From Bacteroidota bacterium (GTDB taxonomy: Bacteria > Bacteroidota > Bacteroidia > Bacteroidales > JAAYUG01), in the NCBI GenBank assembly GCA_029571215.1, contig JAKPTE010000001.1, positions 1 through 64,000 on the forward strand: a stretch of DNA of 64,000 bases. The letters run 5' to 3'. The position numbers and the translations under genes are program-made. Below are positions 1 through 12,435 of this stretch, in pieces. The notes below the pieces were generated by a model, which was not told the DNA's origin, searched no databases, and worked only from the letters and a program-made list of their open reading frames with translations. The stretch's first letter is position 1. Each line of letters begins with the position of its first letter.

Positions 1-515
1 TTCTGAAGGGTGGTGAATATCAGATGATGGATAAGGACGAACTTAAAAAACAGGTGAGGGAAGGAAGGATCAAGGTACTATTTGGTACCGATGCGGCCAG
101 CGAAGGGCTGAATCTTCAACGGCTGGGTACCCTGATAAACCTTGACCTGCCATGGAATCCCACCCGTCTTGAACAGCGCAAGGGAAGAATTCAGCGGATA
201 TGCCAGCTCAGAGAAACTGTGTACATTTACAACATGCGGTACAAGGATTCGGTTGAAGACAGGGTGCATCAGCTGTTATCGGGTCGTCTGGAGGGTGTGT
301 ACCGTCTGTTCGGCCAGATACCGGATGTACTGGAAGACGTATGGATTGAAATGGCAGTCGGAAATAAAGAAAAAGCAAGGCAGATCATAGATGCCCTTCC
401 TGAAAAACATCCCTTTGAAATGAAATATAATAAGATAGAGAATATAAACTGGGAGAGTTGTGCAGAGATTCTCAACAAAACCGAGAGGAGACACATTCTG
501 CTCAAGAACTGGTAG
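1..515 (+). CDS. SNF2-type helicase, C-terminal part (cut by window edge)
   Basis: The frame is open to the left edge, so only the last part of the protein is present. It shows the end of the second RecA-like helicase lobe: a motif V block (GTDAASEGLNLQ, nt 84-119) and a motif VI block (PWNPTRLEQRKGRIQRICQ, nt 150-206) with the conserved arginines. About 100 residues follow with no motif I recognise. These motifs are typical of SNF2/HepA-like DNA-dependent ATPases, a family also used in phage-defence systems such as DISARM and Zorya. Motif VI normally ends RIGQ; here it reads RICQ. The stop lies 5 nt before the next ORF, so the two are probably co-transcribed. Helicase assignment is firm; which system it belongs to is inference. 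Confidence 0.85.
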   Translation, partial: LKGGEYQMMDKDELKKQVREGRIKVLFGTDAASEGLNLQRLGTLINLDLPWNPTRLEQRKGRIQRICQLRETVYIYNMRYKDSVEDRVHQLLSGRLEGVYRLFGQIPDVLEDVWIEMAVGNKEKARQIIDALPEKHPFEMKYNKIENINWESCAEILNKTERRHILLKNW

Positions 516-520
516 AAAGT

Positions 521-1423
521 ATGCCGGATCAAATTCTTCAATATGCTCCAGCTGCAATAAATCCTTATGCAGAAATCAAAACACAAATTGCATCACTTGT
601 CGATACTCTGACTTTTCTTAAACAACACAATCATTGGGAAAAAATACTAATCAATCTTGAAAAAACGCGTTTTTTCCATCCTTTTACCATAATATCACTG
701 GCCTGTCTTAATTATAAACTGTCAGCGGAAAAAAGAGAGATAGATTTTTGTTTTCCAGAGAATTCAAATACAGCATTTTATTTAAAGAACGTTTCTTTTC
801 CTCATGGCTTGGAACCCGAGAAACATGAAAATTGGCCAGTCTTATTGGAAAATTATGCCGATAAAACATATCTTCCCCTTATAAAATTCTCTACTGATCG
901 TTCAGCTATATCTTCTTCAGTTGTTGAAAAAGTGCTTTCAAAAGTTAATGGTCTCATTATTAAAAATTTTAAAATCAAAGATTGCTACAAGGACAGTACA
1001 TCGTATCTGATTTCGGAAATTACGGATAATGTCATTGAGCATTCGGGGGAGAAAAGAGGATGGTTAATGGTTCAATATTATCCCAAAATGCGAATAATTG
1101 ACATATGCATTGCAGATACAGGGATAACAATACTTGGATCTTATCAGAAGTTTGGATTTTCGAACATAAAAGATGATTATACAGCCTTAAAAAAGGCATT
1201 GTCCGGTCTTTCTACCAAAAACTTAAAGGAGCGAGGAAGAGGTTTATATTCGACAAATAATGTGGTTACGCTATCGCTTAATGGCTTCTTTACAATTGTT
1301 TCGGGCAATGCCCTTTTCTTTGAAAGGAAATATTATTCTATTCCTGTTGAATGGCCAGGAACTTTAGTCTCAATGAGAATACGAACTGATATACAAAATT
1401 TGAACTTATATAATTATATTTAA
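521..1423 (+). CDS. GHKL-type ATP-binding protein
   Basis: A 300-residue protein starting at the first ATG after the helicase stop; the frame stays open upstream, but only with non-ATG starts inside the helicase gene. The C-terminal half has a Bergerat ATP-binding fold: an N-box (ISEITDNVIEHS, with Glu166, Asn170 and His174), a G1-like box (IADTGIT, about residues 198-203, second glycine replaced by Thr) and a G2 box (ERGRGLYS, about 237-244). The N-terminal 150 residues are not recognised. Small GHKL proteins of this sort resemble anti-sigma kinases more than sensor kinases, since no transmembrane, HAMP or phosphoacceptor His region is visible. Base composition is clearly more AT-rich than the rest of the window. 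It pairs with the STAS-like gene that follows by 39 nt. Confidence 0.75.
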   Translation: MPDQILQYAPAAINPYAEIKTQIASLVDTLTFLKQHNHWEKILINLEKTRFFHPFTIISLACLNYKLSAEKREIDFCFPENSNTAFYLKNVSFPHGLEPEKHENWPVLLENYADKTYLPLIKFSTDRSAISSSVVEKVLSKVNGLIIKNFKIKDCYKDSTSYLISEITDNVIEHSGEKRGWLMVQYYPKMRIIDICIADTGITILGSYQKFGFSNIKDDYTALKKALSGLSTKNLKERGRGLYSTNNVVTLSLNGFFTIVSGNALFFERKYYSIPVEWPGTLVSMRIRTDIQNLNLYNYI

Positions 1424-1462
1424 CTTATCAATCAAGGCAATTTATATTAAATTTGTCTTGGA

Positions 1463-1819
1463 ATGCAGAACTATATTAACATATTTCTGAAAGATCACTT
1501 TGCTGATTCAATATCGACACGCATAGCAGTGCGGAGTTTATTTTTTGACCTTCCGGAAAATGTTGAAAATGAAGTTATTATTATTGATTTTTCTGGAATT
1601 GAATTCATTTCTTTATCTGCAGCTCATGAACTTAATCTCTTTTTCAGGAAATTTACTGAAAAGGGTAATAAAGTTGAGTTTTTACACACCTCTGACAAAG
1701 TAAATCGTATGCTTTCAAAAGCAAAAGAACCACAAAAGAAAAACAGGCCGAAACAAAAAACAAAACATATTTCTTTCAGGTCATCCAAGGAATTAATCAA
1801 TTATTTTTCAAATATTTAA
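1463..1819 (+). CDS. STAS-like small protein (DUF4325-like)
   Basis: A 118-residue protein with an ATG start. Residues about 10-80 fit a STAS-like fold of the DUF4325 type: a hydrophobic strand (EVIIIDFSGIEFIS) followed by a helix (SLSAAHELNLFF) and a second strand (KVEFLH). The C-terminal 40 residues are basic (KAKEPQKKNRPKQKTKH) and may contact nucleic acid or simply be a flexible tail. In known partner-switching systems a STAS protein is the antagonist of a GHKL kinase; here the GHKL gene is directly upstream, so a regulatory pair is likely. No Ser/Thr phosphoacceptor can be assigned with certainty, although a Ser lies where SpoIIAA-type proteins carry theirs (ISLSAAHE). Confidence 0.65.
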   Translation: MQNYINIFLKDHFADSISTRIAVRSLFFDLPENVENEVIIIDFSGIEFISLSAAHELNLFFRKFTEKGNKVEFLHTSDKVNRMLSKAKEPQKKNRPKQKTKHISFRSSKELINYFSNI

Positions 1820-1837
1820 TATCCACGAAAAATCCTA

Positions 1838-3481
1838 TCATTCCTTCGCAAACTTCCCTGTAACAATTGCTCCATTGTTGGTCACGATTCGCACAACATA
1901 TAACCCTGGTGGCAAATGGCTGACGGTAGCCTGATAGCCGTTTTCACCAAAGGGTTCAAAGATGGCTGTGCATAATGTTCCGGTAATTGAAAATATGCGC
2001 ATACTTATGGCCGGACGGGACACTATTACAAATAGCCTGTCTGATGCGGGATTCGGATACAGACGTACCGGCCTATCAATGGGAAGTGAATCGCCGGGGT
2101 ATTCCAGATACGCTCCGGGCATATTTTGGTCAAGCCAGGCCAGCCTTTTGCTGATCCAGTTTCTGAACTGGTCAATAACACCTTCGTAGGAGTCGGGCTG
2201 AGGATCCACTTCGGGAGTTCCCACATTGATGCCCAGAATAGGCCACCTTGCATAATGCCTGTTCTGGGCATAATCAATACGTACACTTACCGAATCAATA
2301 TATCCGAGAAGGGCCTTTTCGCTCAGCACAGTTTTTCTCAAATTTCTGTAACGTGTCTGTAATTCATCGGCAAAATGCTTATCCTGCAGGAGCCGCTCCA
2401 TCCAGGTAACCGCCACGGGCCAGTTCCCGCAGCTGTTCACCTGCCAGGCCCAGCCTGAACCATCCGTGGCCCTGAAAATATCGCATTCATCAATATTCTT
2501 CCATGCCCAGTCAAAATCCCACACAGGACCGGCATGCAACCGTCCATCCCTGCTATCGCGGTCTTTATAATAATAGCAGCTCTTTTTGTAAGCATCAATA
2601 TTTCGTGAGAGTTCTCCCACAATGAAATAATCAATAAACGAGCCAACATCGGTATAGGGTCTGTATCCCATGAATGGATCGGTGAATGCATCTCCGTACA
2701 ACGCTTTTTCAAATGTAAAAACGAAACTTCGCAGGTACTGTTTTTGTTGCCAGGTTATTTTTTCCGGCCCGGGGTATTCATAAACAAAATAAACCGAACT
2801 CCCCGGCCGGTCAAGGGCAGGATAAAGGCTCATCCAGCTGTTGGATTCATCGTAGTAATCCTGTTTAAAGATATACCCGCCGGTAAGACTGTCGCCGGTG
2901 TTGTCGTCAGTATCCAGTTTTGCAATGGAAACCCTGTTTCTGTCAACCTTAATTTTCTCACAAAACAGGTAAATTCCCTGGTAATCGCCGTTCAGAATCA
3001 CTTCGCAAAGCGTTGACCGAGGAGCATAGTGCCCCATCTGGCGAAAAATACGGAAAGCAAGGTCATTTCTCAGAAAGGTCTTGTCATTGTAACTGGGAAT
3101 GAGAATCCATTCGTTTTCCGGAGGAAATCCGAGCAGCGGAATATTCAGCTTTTCACCGGCGGCATTACGGGTTTCAAAAAGATACGGTTTCTGAGGAAAG
3201 GTTTGTGAATATCTGCCACGGTATTCTATGCCTATGTTTCCTTCGTATACATTTCCCGGATCATCTGAACTGTTGATTTTCCCTAAACCATGAAATATAA
3301 TCTTCAGAAAAGCGTCCGTCTTGGGTTCGTCCAGGATGATATTACCACGGGTATCTATAACGAATAACGGAAGGCTGGATGTATCAGCCACTGACCCGGT
3401 GGCAGTGGCCGATATTAAGATATTGACAACAACTACTCCTGCTGCCAGAAAAATTCGTTTTGTCTTATTCTTGGAAGTCAA
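1838..3481 (-). CDS. CotH-like secreted protein with T9SS sorting domain
   Basis: A 547-residue protein. The only usable start near the signal peptide is a TTG (complement of 3479-3481), since no ATG lies between the upstream in-frame stop and residue 149. The order is: a hydrophobic signal segment (about 10-30), an N-terminal beta region (IEYRGRYSQTFPQKPY), a CotH kinase-like core (about 115-420) with the hallmark PVWDFDWAW (Asp322 and Asp324), and a C-terminal type IX secretion sorting domain (about 470-547) that starts at LYPNPASDRL and ends in KFAKE. CotH proteins are atypical kinases first known from spore coats; in Bacteroidota they are common as secreted surface proteins with unclear substrates. 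The gene follows the esterase by 42 nt and is probably its operon partner. Confidence 0.85.
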   Translation of the reverse strand: MTSKNKTKRIFLAAGVVVVNILISATATGSVADTSSLPLFVIDTRGNIILDEPKTDAFLKIIFHGLGKINSSDDPGNVYEGNIGIEYRGRYSQTFPQKPYLFETRNAAGEKLNIPLLGFPPENEWILIPSYNDKTFLRNDLAFRIFRQMGHYAPRSTLCEVILNGDYQGIYLFCEKIKVDRNRVSIAKLDTDDNTGDSLTGGYIFKQDYYDESNSWMSLYPALDRPGSSVYFVYEYPGPEKITWQQKQYLRSFVFTFEKALYGDAFTDPFMGYRPYTDVGSFIDYFIVGELSRNIDAYKKSCYYYKDRDSRDGRLHAGPVWDFDWAWKNIDECDIFRATDGSGWAWQVNSCGNWPVAVTWMERLLQDKHFADELQTRYRNLRKTVLSEKALLGYIDSVSVRIDYAQNRHYARWPILGINVGTPEVDPQPDSYEGVIDQFRNWISKRLAWLDQNMPGAYLEYPGDSLPIDRPVRLYPNPASDRLFVIVSRPAISMRIFSITGTLCTAIFEPFGENGYQATVSHLPPGLYVVRIVTNNGAIVTGKFAKE

Positions 3482-4387: not shown

Positions 4388-4650
4388 AGCAAGTATTTTT
4401 TTTCATTTTCGAAGATAATAAAAGCTTCCGTAAAGCGTGTTTTTATTTAACTCTTTCATTTCTCATGGAAATATTTCTTCCGGAAGAGAATCTGCAAATG
4501 TTGTTTGAGCAAGCTCATCACAAATTTGAACAAATCAGCCGTCATTAATTGTACAGGCAAGTTGTAATGGTAAACCCAATTATTGAGGCTGTCTAAAAAG
4601 ACAGAATTGTGTTTTATTTAAAACGAAGACTTGTTAATAAAAGTTGAAAA

Positions 4651-4681
4651 GAGGGTGGAAAAAACACCCTCTTTTTTTTTG
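4651..4681 (+). terminator. Internal intrinsic terminator upstream of transposase
   Basis: A perfect 7-bp stem (GAGGGTG / CACCCTC) with a GAAAAAA loop is followed by nine T residues. It lies inside the insertion sequence, between the left end and the transposase start, where it would stop transcription entering from outside the element. Confidence 0.8.
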
Positions 4682-4728
4682 TTATCAGCACTGATATTGA
4701 TACATTAGAGGTTGACAATTAAATAATC

Positions 4729-6405
4729 ATGGCCAAAATAGCATTTAAACCTGTAACCTCACAACAAGCCGTACTTTTTCCTCAGAATATAGGTGAGAAA
4801 ATTCCCGAGAATCATCCCGTAAGGCTTGTAAATCAGGTGGTTGACGCGTTAAAAATTGACGATATTTTAGGTACCTACAAAGGAGGGGGAACAAGCAGCT
4901 ACCACCCGAGAGTAATGATCAAGATACTTTTTTACAGCTACCTAAACAACATATACTCTTGCCGAAAAATAGAGCGAGCCTTGCATGAGAACATTTATTT
5001 CATGTGGATATCGGGCAACTGCACTCCCGACTACAGAACGATCAACTACTTCAGAGGGAAGCGACTTAAAAATCGAATACATAGGCTTTTTGCAGAGGTA
5101 GTCAGGCTGCTGGCCGGCCTTGGATATGTATCCCTTGACCAACAGTTTGTTGATGGGACAAAAATAGAGGCATGTGCCAACCGGTACACTTTTGTTTGGC
5201 GGGGCACTGTGGAAAAGAATAAGGAGAAGCTGGAGTCGAAAATCAGGTCGGTGTTATCCGAAATCGAGGCGTCAATAAAAGAGGATAGCAAGCCCAATGG
5301 CGAAGGAGTAAAAGAGATCAATCCGGAAGAGCTAAAAGCCAGGTTGCAGGAGCTGAACGAAAAGCTGGGCAGCCTAAGTAAAAAGCAGAGGAAATCGTTG
5401 GAAAAGGTGGAGAAAGAGCAGCTTCCGCGTTTGCAAGAGTATGAGAAGCAGTTGGCAACCCTTGGCGAAAGAAATAGTTACTCAAAAACAGATCCTGACG
5501 CCACCTTCATGCGCATGAAGGAAGATCACATGAAGAACGGCCAGCTAAAGCCAGCCTATAACATCCAGCTATCAACAGAAAACCAGATTGTTACCAACTA
5601 CTCAGTACATCAAAGACCAACCGATACGGGAACGCTAATTCCCCATCTTGAGCAGTTCCGGCAGCTTTACGGGAGGCAGTCGGAAAAAGTCATCGCCGAT
5701 GCCGGCTATGGCAGTGAAGAAAATTACAGCTACATGGAGAGCAATGGCATTGAGGCCTATGTGAAATACAGTTACTTTCATAAAGAGCAGAAACGTCCAT
5801 TTAAGAAAAACATATTTCATCAGGAAAACCTATATTACAATGCTGAAAAGGATTACTTCGTCTGCCCGATGGGGCAAAAAATGCAAAAAATCGGAATGGG
5901 CAAACGGCAAACGGAGCTAGGCTACATCTCATCGGTAACTTACTACCAGGCCAGCAGGTGCGATGGATGCCCTTTGCTCTGGGGCTGCCATAAGAGCAGA
6001 CATCCGAGAAGGATTGAGGTGAACCATAAGCTGCGTGAGTACAAGGCCACTGTGAGAGAACGCCTGGTAAGCGAGGAAGGGGTAAGGCTACGGGGGCAAC
6101 GGGCTATAGAACCCGAAGCCGTATTTGGGCAACTCAAAAGCAATAGCATGTTTAACAGGTTTAAAATGAGAGGTTTATGCATGGTGGAAATCGAATTTGG
6201 ATTGGCTGTAATCTCGCACAACCTGAGAAAGCTGGTAAAGCTATGGGCTGGATTCCAAGGATGCGATGGTTATCAACAGCTTGCTCGGCTTTATCAACAT
6301 ATTTTTAGCTTCCTAAAAGTTTATCTAAGAGAATTTTTGGCACACAAAGGTGCAGGAATGATTTATTTGCGAACAAAACTTGAACTTCAACAGTTAATTG
6401 CATAA
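4729..6405 (+). CDS. IS1182 family transposase
   Basis: An intact 558-residue DDE transposase. The N-terminal region carries the DUF772-type block (RVMIKILFYSYLNNIYSCRKIERAL). The candidate catalytic acids are Asp at FVDGTKIEA (about residue 139), Asp at VIADAGYGSEEN (about 322) and Glu at RAIEPEAVFGQLK (about 460). A Cys-rich segment (CDGCPLLWGCHKSR) typical of this family lies between the last two. A highly charged coiled-coil-like insertion occupies about 160-245. No frameshift or stop interrupts it, so the element looks transposition-competent. The stop codon lies just inside the right inverted repeat. Confidence 0.93.
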   Translation: MAKIAFKPVTSQQAVLFPQNIGEKIPENHPVRLVNQVVDALKIDDILGTYKGGGTSSYHPRVMIKILFYSYLNNIYSCRKIERALHENIYFMWISGNCTPDYRTINYFRGKRLKNRIHRLFAEVVRLLAGLGYVSLDQQFVDGTKIEACANRYTFVWRGTVEKNKEKLESKIRSVLSEIEASIKEDSKPNGEGVKEINPEELKARLQELNEKLGSLSKKQRKSLEKVEKEQLPRLQEYEKQLATLGERNSYSKTDPDATFMRMKEDHMKNGQLKPAYNIQLSTENQIVTNYSVHQRPTDTGTLIPHLEQFRQLYGRQSEKVIADAGYGSEENYSYMESNGIEAYVKYSYFHKEQKRPFKKNIFHQENLYYNAEKDYFVCPMGQKMQKIGMGKRQTELGYISSVTYYQASRCDGCPLLWGCHKSRHPRRIEVNHKLREYKATVRERLVSEEGVRLRGQRAIEPEAVFGQLKSNSMFNRFKMRGLCMVEIEFGLAVISHNLRKLVKLWAGFQGCDGYQQLARLYQHIFSFLKVYLREFLAHKGAGMIYLRTKLELQQLIA

Positions 6406-6551
6406 AAAAGGCTGCCTTTTTAGACAGCCTCAATATGATTAAGAAAAATCAACTTTTCCGGTTTGCTGGCGCTACACCATAAAAGTGATTTTTCTAAATC
6501 GGGATAACCCCAAATAATCCATTGGTTCGCTCCTTCTGAGAGCTCCCAATG

Positions 6552-6567
6552 AATAATTTGGGTTAAA
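6552..6567. repeat. Partial inverted repeat of the sequence left of the IS
   Basis: AATAATTTGGGTTAAA at 6552-6567 is close to the reverse complement of 4571-4584 (TAAACCCAATTATT), which directly abuts the left end of the insertion sequence. The two would have formed a hairpin before insertion, or they are a chance AT-rich match. Confidence 0.3.
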
Positions 6568-8705: not shown

Positions 8706-9731
8706 ATGGGAAACAAGAAAAAATCTGCCTTCAGCTTTGAATCAGGGAACATCTTTTTTTACATAATACGAAGATGGCGTTTTTTTGCCACGGTTCTTGT
8801 TGCTGCTGTGTTGGTCTCCTCAGTTGTTTCCCTGCTGATTCCGCCCCGGTATAAATCAACTGTGATTCTCTTTCCGGCCGCTTCGGTTCCGGTTTCGCAG
8901 GTTTTGCTGGCACCCGGATATTCAGGTTCACGGGTCGGCATCACTTCTTTCGGAGAGGAAGAAGAGGCAGAACAGGTTCTTCAGGTACTGAACTCCGAAG
9001 TAATCCGCGATGCCGTTGTTCAACAGTTCAATCTGATGGAACACTACGGTATTGATACCTCATCCCGAACAAAAAGGACCCAGCTTCTGAGCGAGTATAA
9101 AAAGAATTTTTCTTTCCGCCGGACAGAGTTCCTCTCTATTGAGATTTCAGTTCTTGACAGGGACAGGCAGATGGCTGCTGATATTGCCAACTATGTGGCA
9201 TCGCTCATCGATTCTGTGATGAATGGCATGAAGCGGGCCCGGGCTGTCAAGGCATATGAAATTGTAGCCCGTGAGTTCCAGGATCTGCAAAAACATGTAG
9301 AGATGCTTCAGGATTCTGTTGAATTGATGCGAAAAATGGGGATTCCCGATTACGGCACACAAATCGAAGTCCTTACGGAGCAATATGCCCAGGCTCTGAT
9401 TAGAGGAAATACATCAGCTGCCAATACTCTGAAGGAAAAACTGGATCTGTTCAACAAATATGGAAGCCGCTATATTGCACTACGTACCAATTTAGATCTT
9501 GAAACCCGTCAGCTGAATGAACTCCGCAACAGGTACATCCAGGCTAAGGTGGAAGCGGAACAGGATCTGCCCAATAAATTTATCGTTGACAGTGCTGTTC
9601 CGGCCGAAAAGAAATCCAAACCCGTACGTTGGCTGATTGTGGTGGTATCCACCTTTTCAGCTTTTATATTTGCCCTGATGGCACTGTTGTTTTTTGAAAA
9701 TTACTGGAAAAAAATCCGCCGGGAAATCTGA
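8706..9731 (+). CDS. Wzz-like polysaccharide chain-length protein
   Basis: A 341-residue inner-membrane protein with the Wzz/BexE topology: one transmembrane helix near the N-terminus (about 19-45, RWRFFATVLVAAVLVSSVVSLL) followed by PPRYKSTVILFP, a long periplasmic coiled-coil region (about 140-280), and a second transmembrane helix near the C-terminus (about 308-332). The short cytoplasmic tail carries no tyrosine-kinase domain. Such proteins set the chain length of lipopolysaccharide O-antigen, capsule or exopolysaccharide. The stop codon overlaps the start of the next gene by one base (TGATG), so the two are translationally coupled. Confidence 0.85.
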   Translation: MGNKKKSAFSFESGNIFFYIIRRWRFFATVLVAAVLVSSVVSLLIPPRYKSTVILFPAASVPVSQVLLAPGYSGSRVGITSFGEEEEAEQVLQVLNSEVIRDAVVQQFNLMEHYGIDTSSRTKRTQLLSEYKKNFSFRRTEFLSIEISVLDRDRQMAADIANYVASLIDSVMNGMKRARAVKAYEIVAREFQDLQKHVEMLQDSVELMRKMGIPDYGTQIEVLTEQYAQALIRGNTSAANTLKEKLDLFNKYGSRYIALRTNLDLETRQLNELRNRYIQAKVEAEQDLPNKFIVDSAVPAEKKSKPVRWLIVVVSTFSAFIFALMALLFFENYWKKIRREI

Positions 9732-11215
9732 TGTATCTTTTGAAAAAGAAAGTCCGCCAGGCCCTGCTACTATCCCTTGCCTTCATTTTACTGAATGCGC
9801 TGGCAATTTATTTCGACAAGTACCTGCTCAACCTCATTCCTATTGGTCTTCTTGTACTAGCCATCGCCTTTTTTCATCTCGACTGGCTTTTCTTTATTCT
9901 GGTATTTCTTGTTCCTTTGTCTGTTCAGCTGAAATACCTCGTTCCGGGTCTTTCCTTTGATTTGTTTCTTCCTACGGAACCACTGCTGGCCGGAATACTG
10001 ATCCTCTTCATCCTAAAGCTGTTCAACGGTGAAAAAATTGAAAAACCCTTGCTGATCCATCCGGTAACGCTGGCTATATTGTTTTACCTTGCCTGGATGG
10101 CAATTACTTCAGTTACTTCCACCATGCCGCTGGTTTCCTTTAAATATTTGCTGGCACATATCTGGTTTATTGTTTCCTTCTATTTTCTGGCGGTGTATAT
10201 TTTCAGGAAGAGGAAAAACATGTTTCGTTTCTGGTGGATGTACATAGTTCCCTTTGCAATAGTTATCATATATACGGTTTCGCGGCATATTACCTTTGGA
10301 CTGAATAAAAAGACGGTCTATTTTGCCATGAAGCCTTTTTACAATGACCATACCATATACGGGGCTGCCCTGGCCATGTTCCTTCCGGTCCTGATCGGAA
10401 TGGCTGTTTATTATTACCGGAAAGGTAATTTGTTAAAAAACATTGTTCTCTGGTTGCTGACAGTCCTTTATACGTTTGGGGTTGTTTTTTCCTATACCAG
10501 GGCGGCATGGATCAGTCTGGCAGGTGCAATGGTCGTGTTTTTGTTGATTCGCCTTTTCCGCATCCGCTTTGGAGTTCTTCTTGGAGGGACAGTTCTTCTG
10601 GCAGGGCTTTTCTTTGCTTTTCAGACCCAGCTGATGATCAAACTTGAAAAAAACAAACAGGATTCATCCGTTGATCTGGCAAAACACCTGCAAAGCATTT
10701 CCAATATTGCCTCAGATGCTTCCAACCGCGAACGGATCAACCGGTGGCATTCAGCCATACGTATGTTCAGGGAAAAGCCTGTTTTTGGATTTGGTCCCGG
10801 TACGTATATGTTCCAGTATGCGCCTTATCAGAAATGGTATGAAGAAACCATTATCAGCACCAATTTCGGAACTCTCGGAAATGCGCACAGCGAATATATC
10901 GGACCTCTGGCGGAGTCAGGTTTGGCAGGCACCCTCAGTGTTCTTGCCATTATGATCCTCACATTCTTTACCGGAATGAAAGTATTTTATGCTGCATCTT
11001 CGTTCAAAACCAAAGTTCTGGTCTTGTCTTCCCTGCTGGGCCTCCTCACGTATTACATTCACGGTTTGATGAACAATTTTCTCGACACGGATAAGATATC
11101 GGCTCCATTCTGGGGTTTTACGGCGATTATTGTTGCCCTGGATATATACCACAAGGAAATTATGACAACCGAGGATAGTAGTGGGCAGGTATTTACTGAT
11201 GCCGGTCAGGCATAG
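9731..11215 (+). CDS. O-antigen ligase / Wzy-like polysaccharide protein
   Basis: A 494-residue polytopic membrane protein with about ten hydrophobic segments. The large periplasmic loop holds a Wzy_C-type signature (FGFGPGTYMFQY followed by NAHSEYIGPLAESGLAGTL, about 365-410). The family joins O-antigen to lipid A-core or polymerises repeat units. Together with the coupled Wzz-like gene it forms a small surface-polysaccharide module, but no glycosyltransferases or flippase lie nearby, so the rest of the pathway must be encoded elsewhere. Its last 10 bases overlap the 3' end of the opposing phosphatase gene. Confidence 0.85.
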   Translation: MYLLKKKVRQALLLSLAFILLNALAIYFDKYLLNLIPIGLLVLAIAFFHLDWLFFILVFLVPLSVQLKYLVPGLSFDLFLPTEPLLAGILILFILKLFNGEKIEKPLLIHPVTLAILFYLAWMAITSVTSTMPLVSFKYLLAHIWFIVSFYFLAVYIFRKRKNMFRFWWMYIVPFAIVIIYTVSRHITFGLNKKTVYFAMKPFYNDHTIYGAALAMFLPVLIGMAVYYYRKGNLLKNIVLWLLTVLYTFGVVFSYTRAAWISLAGAMVVFLLIRLFRIRFGVLLGGTVLLAGLFFAFQTQLMIKLEKNKQDSSVDLAKHLQSISNIASDASNRERINRWHSAIRMFREKPVFGFGPGTYMFQYAPYQKWYEETIISTNFGTLGNAHSEYIGPLAESGLAGTLSVLAIMILTFFTGMKVFYAASSFKTKVLVLSSLLGLLTYYIHGLMNNFLDTDKISAPFWGFTAIIVALDIYHKEIMTTEDSSGQVFTDAGQA

Positions 11216-12435
11216 AATTCAATACCAAGGATAGTGATATCATCAAAAATGGCTGTACTGCCGCTAAGTATGCGCCTTGACTCAATAATGCTGTTAATGT
11301 TTTCAGCAACAGGAGCATCATTTGCAATGTTTTCCTCAATGACGGCAGTCCCGAAACCTACTCCTGTATCATCAATTACTTCTACCAGTCCGTCAGTATA
11401 ACATATCATCTTCGAAGGTTCTTCAATCAACATACTTCCATGATGAATAAAGGGAATTTCATCCAGCATGCCGATTCCCACACAACCACTGCGAAGGAAC
11501 ACAAGCTTGCGGCTCTCTTTATGGTATAATACCGGCGGATTATGACCTGCATTCACAAAATTCAGCTCTCGGGTTCTGTAATTGTATTTGGCAACAAACA
11601 ACGTGATGAATTTTTCCCCATTAGCGCTATTCATAACCCTTTCATTCAATCTTTCCACGAGAGCCGTCAGGGAAATCTCGTGCGAAAACAATGCCCGCAG
11701 GTTGGCCTGAAAATTCGACATAAGCAGCGCTGCTGAAATTCCTTTTCCTGAAACATCTGCTATGCAAAACCCTACTTCATCGCGGCTCAACCTGATACAA
11801 TCGTAATAGTCTCCACCCACCTCATAATGCGGATGATAAAAAGAAGTAACCTGGATATGATTATTCCTTGGGAGTGTATCGTTCTTGGGGATCAGCATGT
11901 TCTGCATACGCGATGCCAGTTCCAGCTCTTTCTTCAGCGCTTCCTGCCGCAGCAATTCATTGAACATCCTTATGTTCTCAATAGCTACCATAATGATGTT
12001 CGACAGGGTTTGTACAAAAGGAAGATGTTTGATGACCGGACTTACCCCTTCTCCTTCCTCTATGTCGCCTATGAGTACATAGGCAATTGGATTGGTGGTT
12101 TTATATACGGGGATAACGATGTCGAAGTGCTGGGCAAGGTTTTCACCTGCTGAAGTAAGGGTTGTTATTTCCGCATATTTCAGGAGATCCCTTTCAACGT
12201 CGATTGTTCGGGATACTTCTTCCTCCAGACCCCAGTATAGCAAGCATTCCCATTTCTTTTCATCAAATTTGTATATGAGAATCTTTCCGATTTTCAGGTC
12301 TTCTTCCAGCAGGCTGCGATAACGGGCAAGCAGCTCCTCAACAGACAAATTCTCATTGATGGCCTGCGTAATTGATAGCAGGGCATGCAGTTTAAAACTT
12401 GAAATCCTGTGCCGTTCACCCAGTGTCTTAGCCAT
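11206..12435 (-). CDS. GAF-SpoIIE family serine phosphatase
   Basis: A 409-residue cytoplasmic protein. Residues about 10-165 form a GAF-like sensor, about 165-190 a helical linker (EALKKELELASRMQNMLIP), and about 200-405 a PP2C-type SpoIIE phosphatase domain with the metal-binding motifs VGGDYYD, IADVSGKG and CYTDGLVEV. Such enzymes dephosphorylate STAS-type antagonists in partner-switching pathways. No STAS or kinase gene is adjacent, so its target is unknown; the nearest STAS-like gene in the window is at 1463-1819 and the distance makes a link speculative. It is convergent with, and overlaps by 10 bases, the O-antigen-ligase-like gene. Confidence 0.88.
   Translation of the reverse strand: MAKTLGERHRISSFKLHALLSITQAINENLSVEELLARYRSLLEEDLKIGKILIYKFDEKKWECLLYWGLEEEVSRTIDVERDLLKYAEITTLTSAGENLAQHFDIVIPVYKTTNPIAYVLIGDIEEGEGVSPVIKHLPFVQTLSNIIMVAIENIRMFNELLRQEALKKELELASRMQNMLIPKNDTLPRNNHIQVTSFYHPHYEVGGDYYDCIRLSRDEVGFCIADVSGKGISAALLMSNFQANLRALFSHEISLTALVERLNERVMNSANGEKFITLFVAKYNYRTRELNFVNAGHNPPVLYHKESRKLVFLRSGCVGIGMLDEIPFIHHGSMLIEEPSKMICYTDGLVEVIDDTGVGFGTAVIEENIANDAPVAENINSIIESRRILSGSTAIFDDITILGIEFYA

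Follow-up and report, generated by a model that had tools for sequence, protein, structure and literature searches.

Gene content of the locus

The window analysed here, a stretch of 64,000 nt starting at base 1 of contig C46, comes from a Bacteroidota assembly of 48 contigs that is 76% complete; since it begins with the first base of the contig, the left flank of the locus lies outside C46. Three open reading frames at its left end, followed by a convergent gene, are the subject of this analysis:

3..515, + strand: C-terminal ~171 residues of a helicase, the remainder cut off by the contig end
521..1423, + strand: predicted STAS-GHKL kinase of 300 aa with a VapK/CapK-like layout and no HTH (AlphaFold2 model, fold matches, motifs)
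1463..1819, + strand: predicted STAS partner, VapS/SpoIIAA-like, with a C-terminal helix at residues 108-117 (Pfam STAS, model)
1820..1837, no strand: right edge of the putative accessory island; the next gene is the first one shared in order with genome G395
1838-3481, - strand: CotH-type gene, convergent; the same-genus genome G395 has the same gene order from here

The helicase frame closes with a TAG stop codon (513-515), and only 5 nt separate it from the ATG of the GHKL gene at 521; the stop of the latter at 1423 is followed, after 39 nt, by the ATG of the STAS gene at 1463, which ends at 1819. We verified all three frames at the coordinates given in the earlier note, and both its positions and its spacings are correct. 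The 5-nt spacing makes co-transcription of the downstream genes with the helicase likely, an arrangement that one would expect of a functional partner. A Bacteroidota promoter pattern was not found before the GHKL/STAS pair, the pattern itself being not above chance.

To the right of window position ~2080, the sequence is collinear with G395, the one further genome of this genus, at 84-87% identity. G395 lacks the cassette: its tRNA-Arg(CCT) gene and the CotH-type gene are immediate neighbours. In the genome studied here, by contrast, contig C13 carries this tRNA-Arg gene, beyond which come unrelated, non-BR genes, and CotH stands next to the STAS gene instead. The simplest reading is that tRNA-Arg and CotH were separated by the insertion of an island whose distal end is formed by the pair; as no sequence spans the gap from C13 to C46, the island is deduced from two contigs. 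A search near the right edge for an att-like copy of the 3' end of tRNA-Arg found none. The housekeeping left flank that the earlier note had named as an outcome against its reading is true of the cassette-less G395 only. Further to the right, a transposase gene (4729-6405) lies inside ~2 kb (window 4422-6567) that are missing from the otherwise collinear G395, a recent insertion.

The helicase fragment and the predicted Type-2 BR operon

The helicase fragment matches Helicase_C in the Pfam scan (E 8e-15) and, far more specifically, two family profiles: NCBIfam NF042964 ('phospholipase D-like domain-containing anti-phage protein'; profile positions 725-895 of 895, E 1e-77) and PADLOC PLD_Helicase (positions 733-905 of 905, E 4e-46). 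Its 171 aa reach the last residue of the family-specific profile, the position of the PLD domain lying off the contig, and across the shared part it is 66% identical to a full-length helicase (L056). Full-length homologues are the last gene of an operon composed of DUF499, DUF3780, DUF1156 methylase and PLD-SNF2 genes; the complete four-gene order is seen in L101, L059, L132 and other loci. This DUF499-DUF3780-DUF1156-PLD helicase operon is the Type-2 'BREX-related' (BR) system (PMC12839542), in the description of which the main text makes no mention of GHKL/STAS. Judged from these profile matches, the fragment at 3-515 is probably the end of a PLD/HKD-SNF2 helicase and the terminal gene of a predicted Type-2 BR operon.

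Since this helicase ends BR operons in the homologues, a restriction-like defence operon is predicted in the left flank, and DUF499, DUF3780 and DUF1156 methylase genes would be expected upstream of the fragment. The suggestion of the earlier note that further genes lie to the left thereby gains definite candidates, and its description of the region as an accessory, defence-type cassette is supported by the match of the helicase to a component of a known anti-phage operon. Elsewhere in the assembly (76% complete), neither the missing helicase part nor DUF499 or DUF1156 was found. The locus resembles other Type-2 BR systems in that its helicase fragment matches their terminal gene, but differs from them in that the predicted operon is visible at its 3' end only and in its GHKL-STAS cargo.

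Predicted structures of the kinase and its STAS partner

The protein encoded at 521-1423 matches HATPase_c only weakly (0.0022, under the Pfam cut-off), and a sequence-only search of solved structures returned no informative match for it. Its AlphaFold2 model (pLDDT 83.5, pTM 0.85) places a STAS-like domain at the N-terminus, followed by a GHKL domain. The best PDB matches of this model are SpoIIAB (1l0o/1tid; TM 0.74-0.75, target-normalised, with a modest Foldseek E of 4e-3) and RsbW, and in the same kind of fold search the N-terminal part matches the STAS structure 4xs5. The Bergerat motifs (N-box E/N, DxG, GxG, G) are present, with E166, N170, D199, G201, G239, G241 and G280 invariant among 14 relatives. 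The models thus settle the fold well enough to describe the protein as a predicted STAS-like domain joined to a SpoIIAB-like GHKL kinase fold, and it would presumably act as a kinase. A weak match (7e-7) to residues 118-245 of the 1750-aa PADLOC DrmA profile was also noted, a hint that GHKL domains may be found fused to helicases of the DISARM-like kind.

The small protein encoded at 1463-1819 matches Pfam STAS above the cut-off (1.1e-5); membership in DUF4325 was rejected, this family scoring only 0.16 with STAS the better match. Its model (pLDDT 85.2) shows a STAS fold, a loose linker and a helix at 108-117. SulP/SpoIIAA STAS folds match the model weakly, and the STAS profile finds the anti-sigma antagonist TM1442 among solved structures (E 0.0036). 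Ser52 is located near the start of helix 51-66, the equivalent of the helix that bears the phospho-serine in SpoIIAA, and is the candidate phospho-acceptor. Its position is occupied by Ala in several relatives of one sub-clade and by Gly in one relative, so that phospho-transfer at this residue would not be universal; Ser50, two residues before it, is invariant in the 12-sequence alignment. The proposal that the two genes form a partner-switch pair holds structurally, in that the predicted folds match SpoIIAB/RsbW and STAS.

Comparison with described kinase-STAS systems

Two arrangements of this kind were described by Chambers et al. (EMBO J 2026; PMC13373217): CapK (HTH-STAS-GHKL) with CapS (STAS-wHTH), and VapK (STAS-GHKL) with VapS (STAS plus a C-terminal helix, with Ser48) and a third partner, VapC. 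In that work ssDNA activates CapK, which phosphorylates CapS; VapS restrains the VapC nuclease toxin through its STAS domain and C-terminal helix until the acceptor serine is modified, as tested with a phospho-mimic; and CapKS control adjacent immune operons, 88 of 443 capKS being located directly behind R-M systems.

The pair at our locus is most similar to VapK/VapS: the gene order is K-S, with a STAS-GHKL kinase that has no HTH and a small STAS protein ending in a helix, S52 is the candidate for the conserved Ser/Thr acceptor (Ala or Gly in some close relatives), and both pairs occur in the vicinity of mobile DNA and of genes for immunity. This likeness rests on domain layout and predicted folds rather than on sequence comparison with VapK/VapS; profile searches of the PDB with the kinase and the STAS protein did not return 9Z7O or 9Z71. 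In contrast to VapKSC, no VapC/PIN gene is encoded on the visible side, where the right neighbour is the convergent CotH-type gene. With CapK/CapS the locus shares a GHKL kinase and STAS substrate pair tied to immune operons (a fifth of capKS lying directly behind R-M), but the kinase here has no N-terminal HTH and the STAS protein no wHTH, as judged from lengths, Pfam scans and models, and no immune operon lies downstream of the pair. SpoIIAB/SpoIIAA and RsbW/RsbV resemble it in the fold of both proteins, the kinase motifs and the Ser at the STAS helix start, but differ in that the kinase here carries an extra N-terminal STAS domain and the STAS protein an extra C-terminal helix, and no sigma factor is present.

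Neighbourhoods of the helicase and of the pair in other genomes

We compared 40 other loci that hold a helicase of the BR family and extend for 1.3 kb or more beyond it on the downstream side; they come from genomes, viral contigs and plasmids, and some are mutually near relatives. A GHKL/STAS pair directly behind the BR helicase was found in 0 of these 40, nor did a GHKL or STAS gene of this kind occur there singly, and in many replicons the BR operon is complete without the pair. The 3' slot of these helicases (L056-L101) is highly variable and often filled by a nuclease, TIR or SIR2 gene: we observed TIR (L097), SIR2 (L059), Mrr (L081, L086), GmrSD/DUF262 (L077, L101, L136), GIY-YIG/DUF4357 (L065, L085) and CBS (L056) genes there. 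A helicase wired to a partner switch, the design that the earlier note had put forward, is thus unsupported by these loci.

Seen from the side of the pair, about 15 close relatives were available (L030/L042 from Algoriphagus, L041, L043, L044/L047, L045, L046, L048 and L150-L156). The two genes are kept together in nearly all of them and most are flanked by unrelated genes, with stand-alone pairs in L041, L043, L046, L048 and L150-L156; no BR gene was found near any close relative. The only other pair that follows a helicase is that of Algoriphagus (L030), located 147 nt behind genes for a PDC-S37 helicase-nuclease and a PDC-S48 exonuclease. With this one exception among ~15, the close relatives of the pair do not adjoin helicases, which comes close to the outcome that the earlier note had set against its own reading. 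Pairs both distant and close lie within ~10 kb of type I R-M genes (L036, L037, L039, L044/L047). Genomes of the phylum carry ~1-2 N6_Mtase genes each, and the pairs are near R-M loci more often than this would lead one to expect, a rough enrichment given without a formal test.

Kinase-STAS pairs also occur on phages: Bacteroides phage BF1-TP2 carries one, and the inserted fragment IFa of the Methanothermobacter prophage psiM100 (L098 4607-7532) holds a GHKL-STAS pair together with a third gene. This third gene of IFa encodes 492 aa without a Pfam match and is a candidate effector partner. Within the family of our genome the pair is absent from both of the 2 other genomes. Its nearest relative, at 43% identity, is that of L041 (5202-6502), which sits ~0.7 kb behind a tRNA-Ser gene (4454-4541), so that here too a tRNA gene is nearby. 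In L044 the pair is flanked on both sides by the same 194-aa gene (8970-9554 and 11211-11795), and likewise in L047; this gene has no Pfam or PADLOC match, and the arrangement looks as if the pair were placed between repeats.

Interpretation of the locus

Taken together, we consider it fairly likely that the locus holds an autonomous, mobile kinase-STAS module of the VapK/VapS-like kind, carried as cargo behind a BR operon on a tRNA-linked island. The pair and the BR helicase are normally found apart in their relatives, and the locus therefore looks like two known modules joined at an island edge and not like an established helicase switch. An accessory genomic island would have its distal end in this region, and the fragment would close a restriction-like operon of the Type-2 BR defence kind (DUF499 ATPase, DUF3780, DUF1156 N6-methylase and PLD-SNF2 nuclease-helicase), while the kinase-STAS module would travel separately and have landed in the variable cargo position behind it. 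By analogy with CapK/VapK, a damage signal, e.g. ssDNA from restriction or infection, may switch on the GHKL kinase; the kinase would then phosphorylate the STAS protein, probably at Ser52, and this would alter the binding preferences of the STAS protein and of its C-terminal helix, releasing a partner. No gene for an effector lies on the visible side; the effector would act from elsewhere or, less likely, be the co-transcribed BR nuclease-helicase itself. The pair is probably a DNA-damage sensor with its effector elsewhere.

Were the pair instead a functional part of the BR system, the unphosphorylated STAS protein would restrain the PLD-SNF2 nuclease-helicase and the ssDNA-activated kinase would release it, as VapK/VapS do with VapC. 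The shared strand, the 5-nt spacing, the VapS-like C-terminal helix through which a nuclease toxin is inhibited in the described system, and the second pair, that of L030, which begins 147 nt after genes for a helicase-nuclease and an exonuclease, all fit such an arrangement. However, the pair is missing from all 40 other BR helicase loci, its close relatives occur without any BR gene, and BR operons are complete without it in many replicons; we regard this reading as unlikely. The wiring that it entails, a BREX-related nuclease-helicase gated by an ssDNA-activated kinase-STAS switch in the same operon, is possible in view of the tight spacing, finds no support in the comparative survey and appears improbable to us. 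In the literature that we examined, no report of such switch-gated nuclease-helicase wiring was found for BREX or BR systems. If true, the gating would put a restriction effector under phospho-regulated release.

Alternatively, the pair alone could be a two-gene defence or stress element (e.g. toxin-antitoxin-like, or acting in superinfection exclusion) that needs no third gene. Its repeated stand-alone presence on chromosomes and phages, with both genes kept together, would agree with this, as would its occurrence on psiM100, where fragment IFa also carries a third gene. We nevertheless give this reading little credence, as neither protein has a recognised effector domain and the related GHKL-STAS pairs on record have a third partner as their target (PMC13373217). 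Transcriptional control of the CapKS type, in which the pair would regulate the BR operon or a neighbouring operon as CapKS do with adjacent immune operons (88 of 443 behind R-M), is very unlikely, for the kinase lacks the N-terminal HTH of CapK, the STAS protein lacks a DNA-binding wHTH, and the pair lies downstream of the operon and is followed by a convergent non-defence gene.

To return to the favoured reading of a mobile module carried as cargo, the locus brings together two modules of known kinds in a combination that is new, with no demonstrated new design. That kinase-STAS pairs sense damage and control immune genes is a recent finding (PMC13373217), to which the present locus contributes a pair that lacks a toxin and lies behind a BREX-related system. 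The survey portrays the pair as a self-contained mobile unit that occurs alone, on phages and beside several kinds of restriction system, and raises the testable question of what a stand-alone kinase-STAS pair acts on. The slot behind Type-2 BR helicases, in turn, is a variable cargo position and thus a candidate place to find new defence genes.
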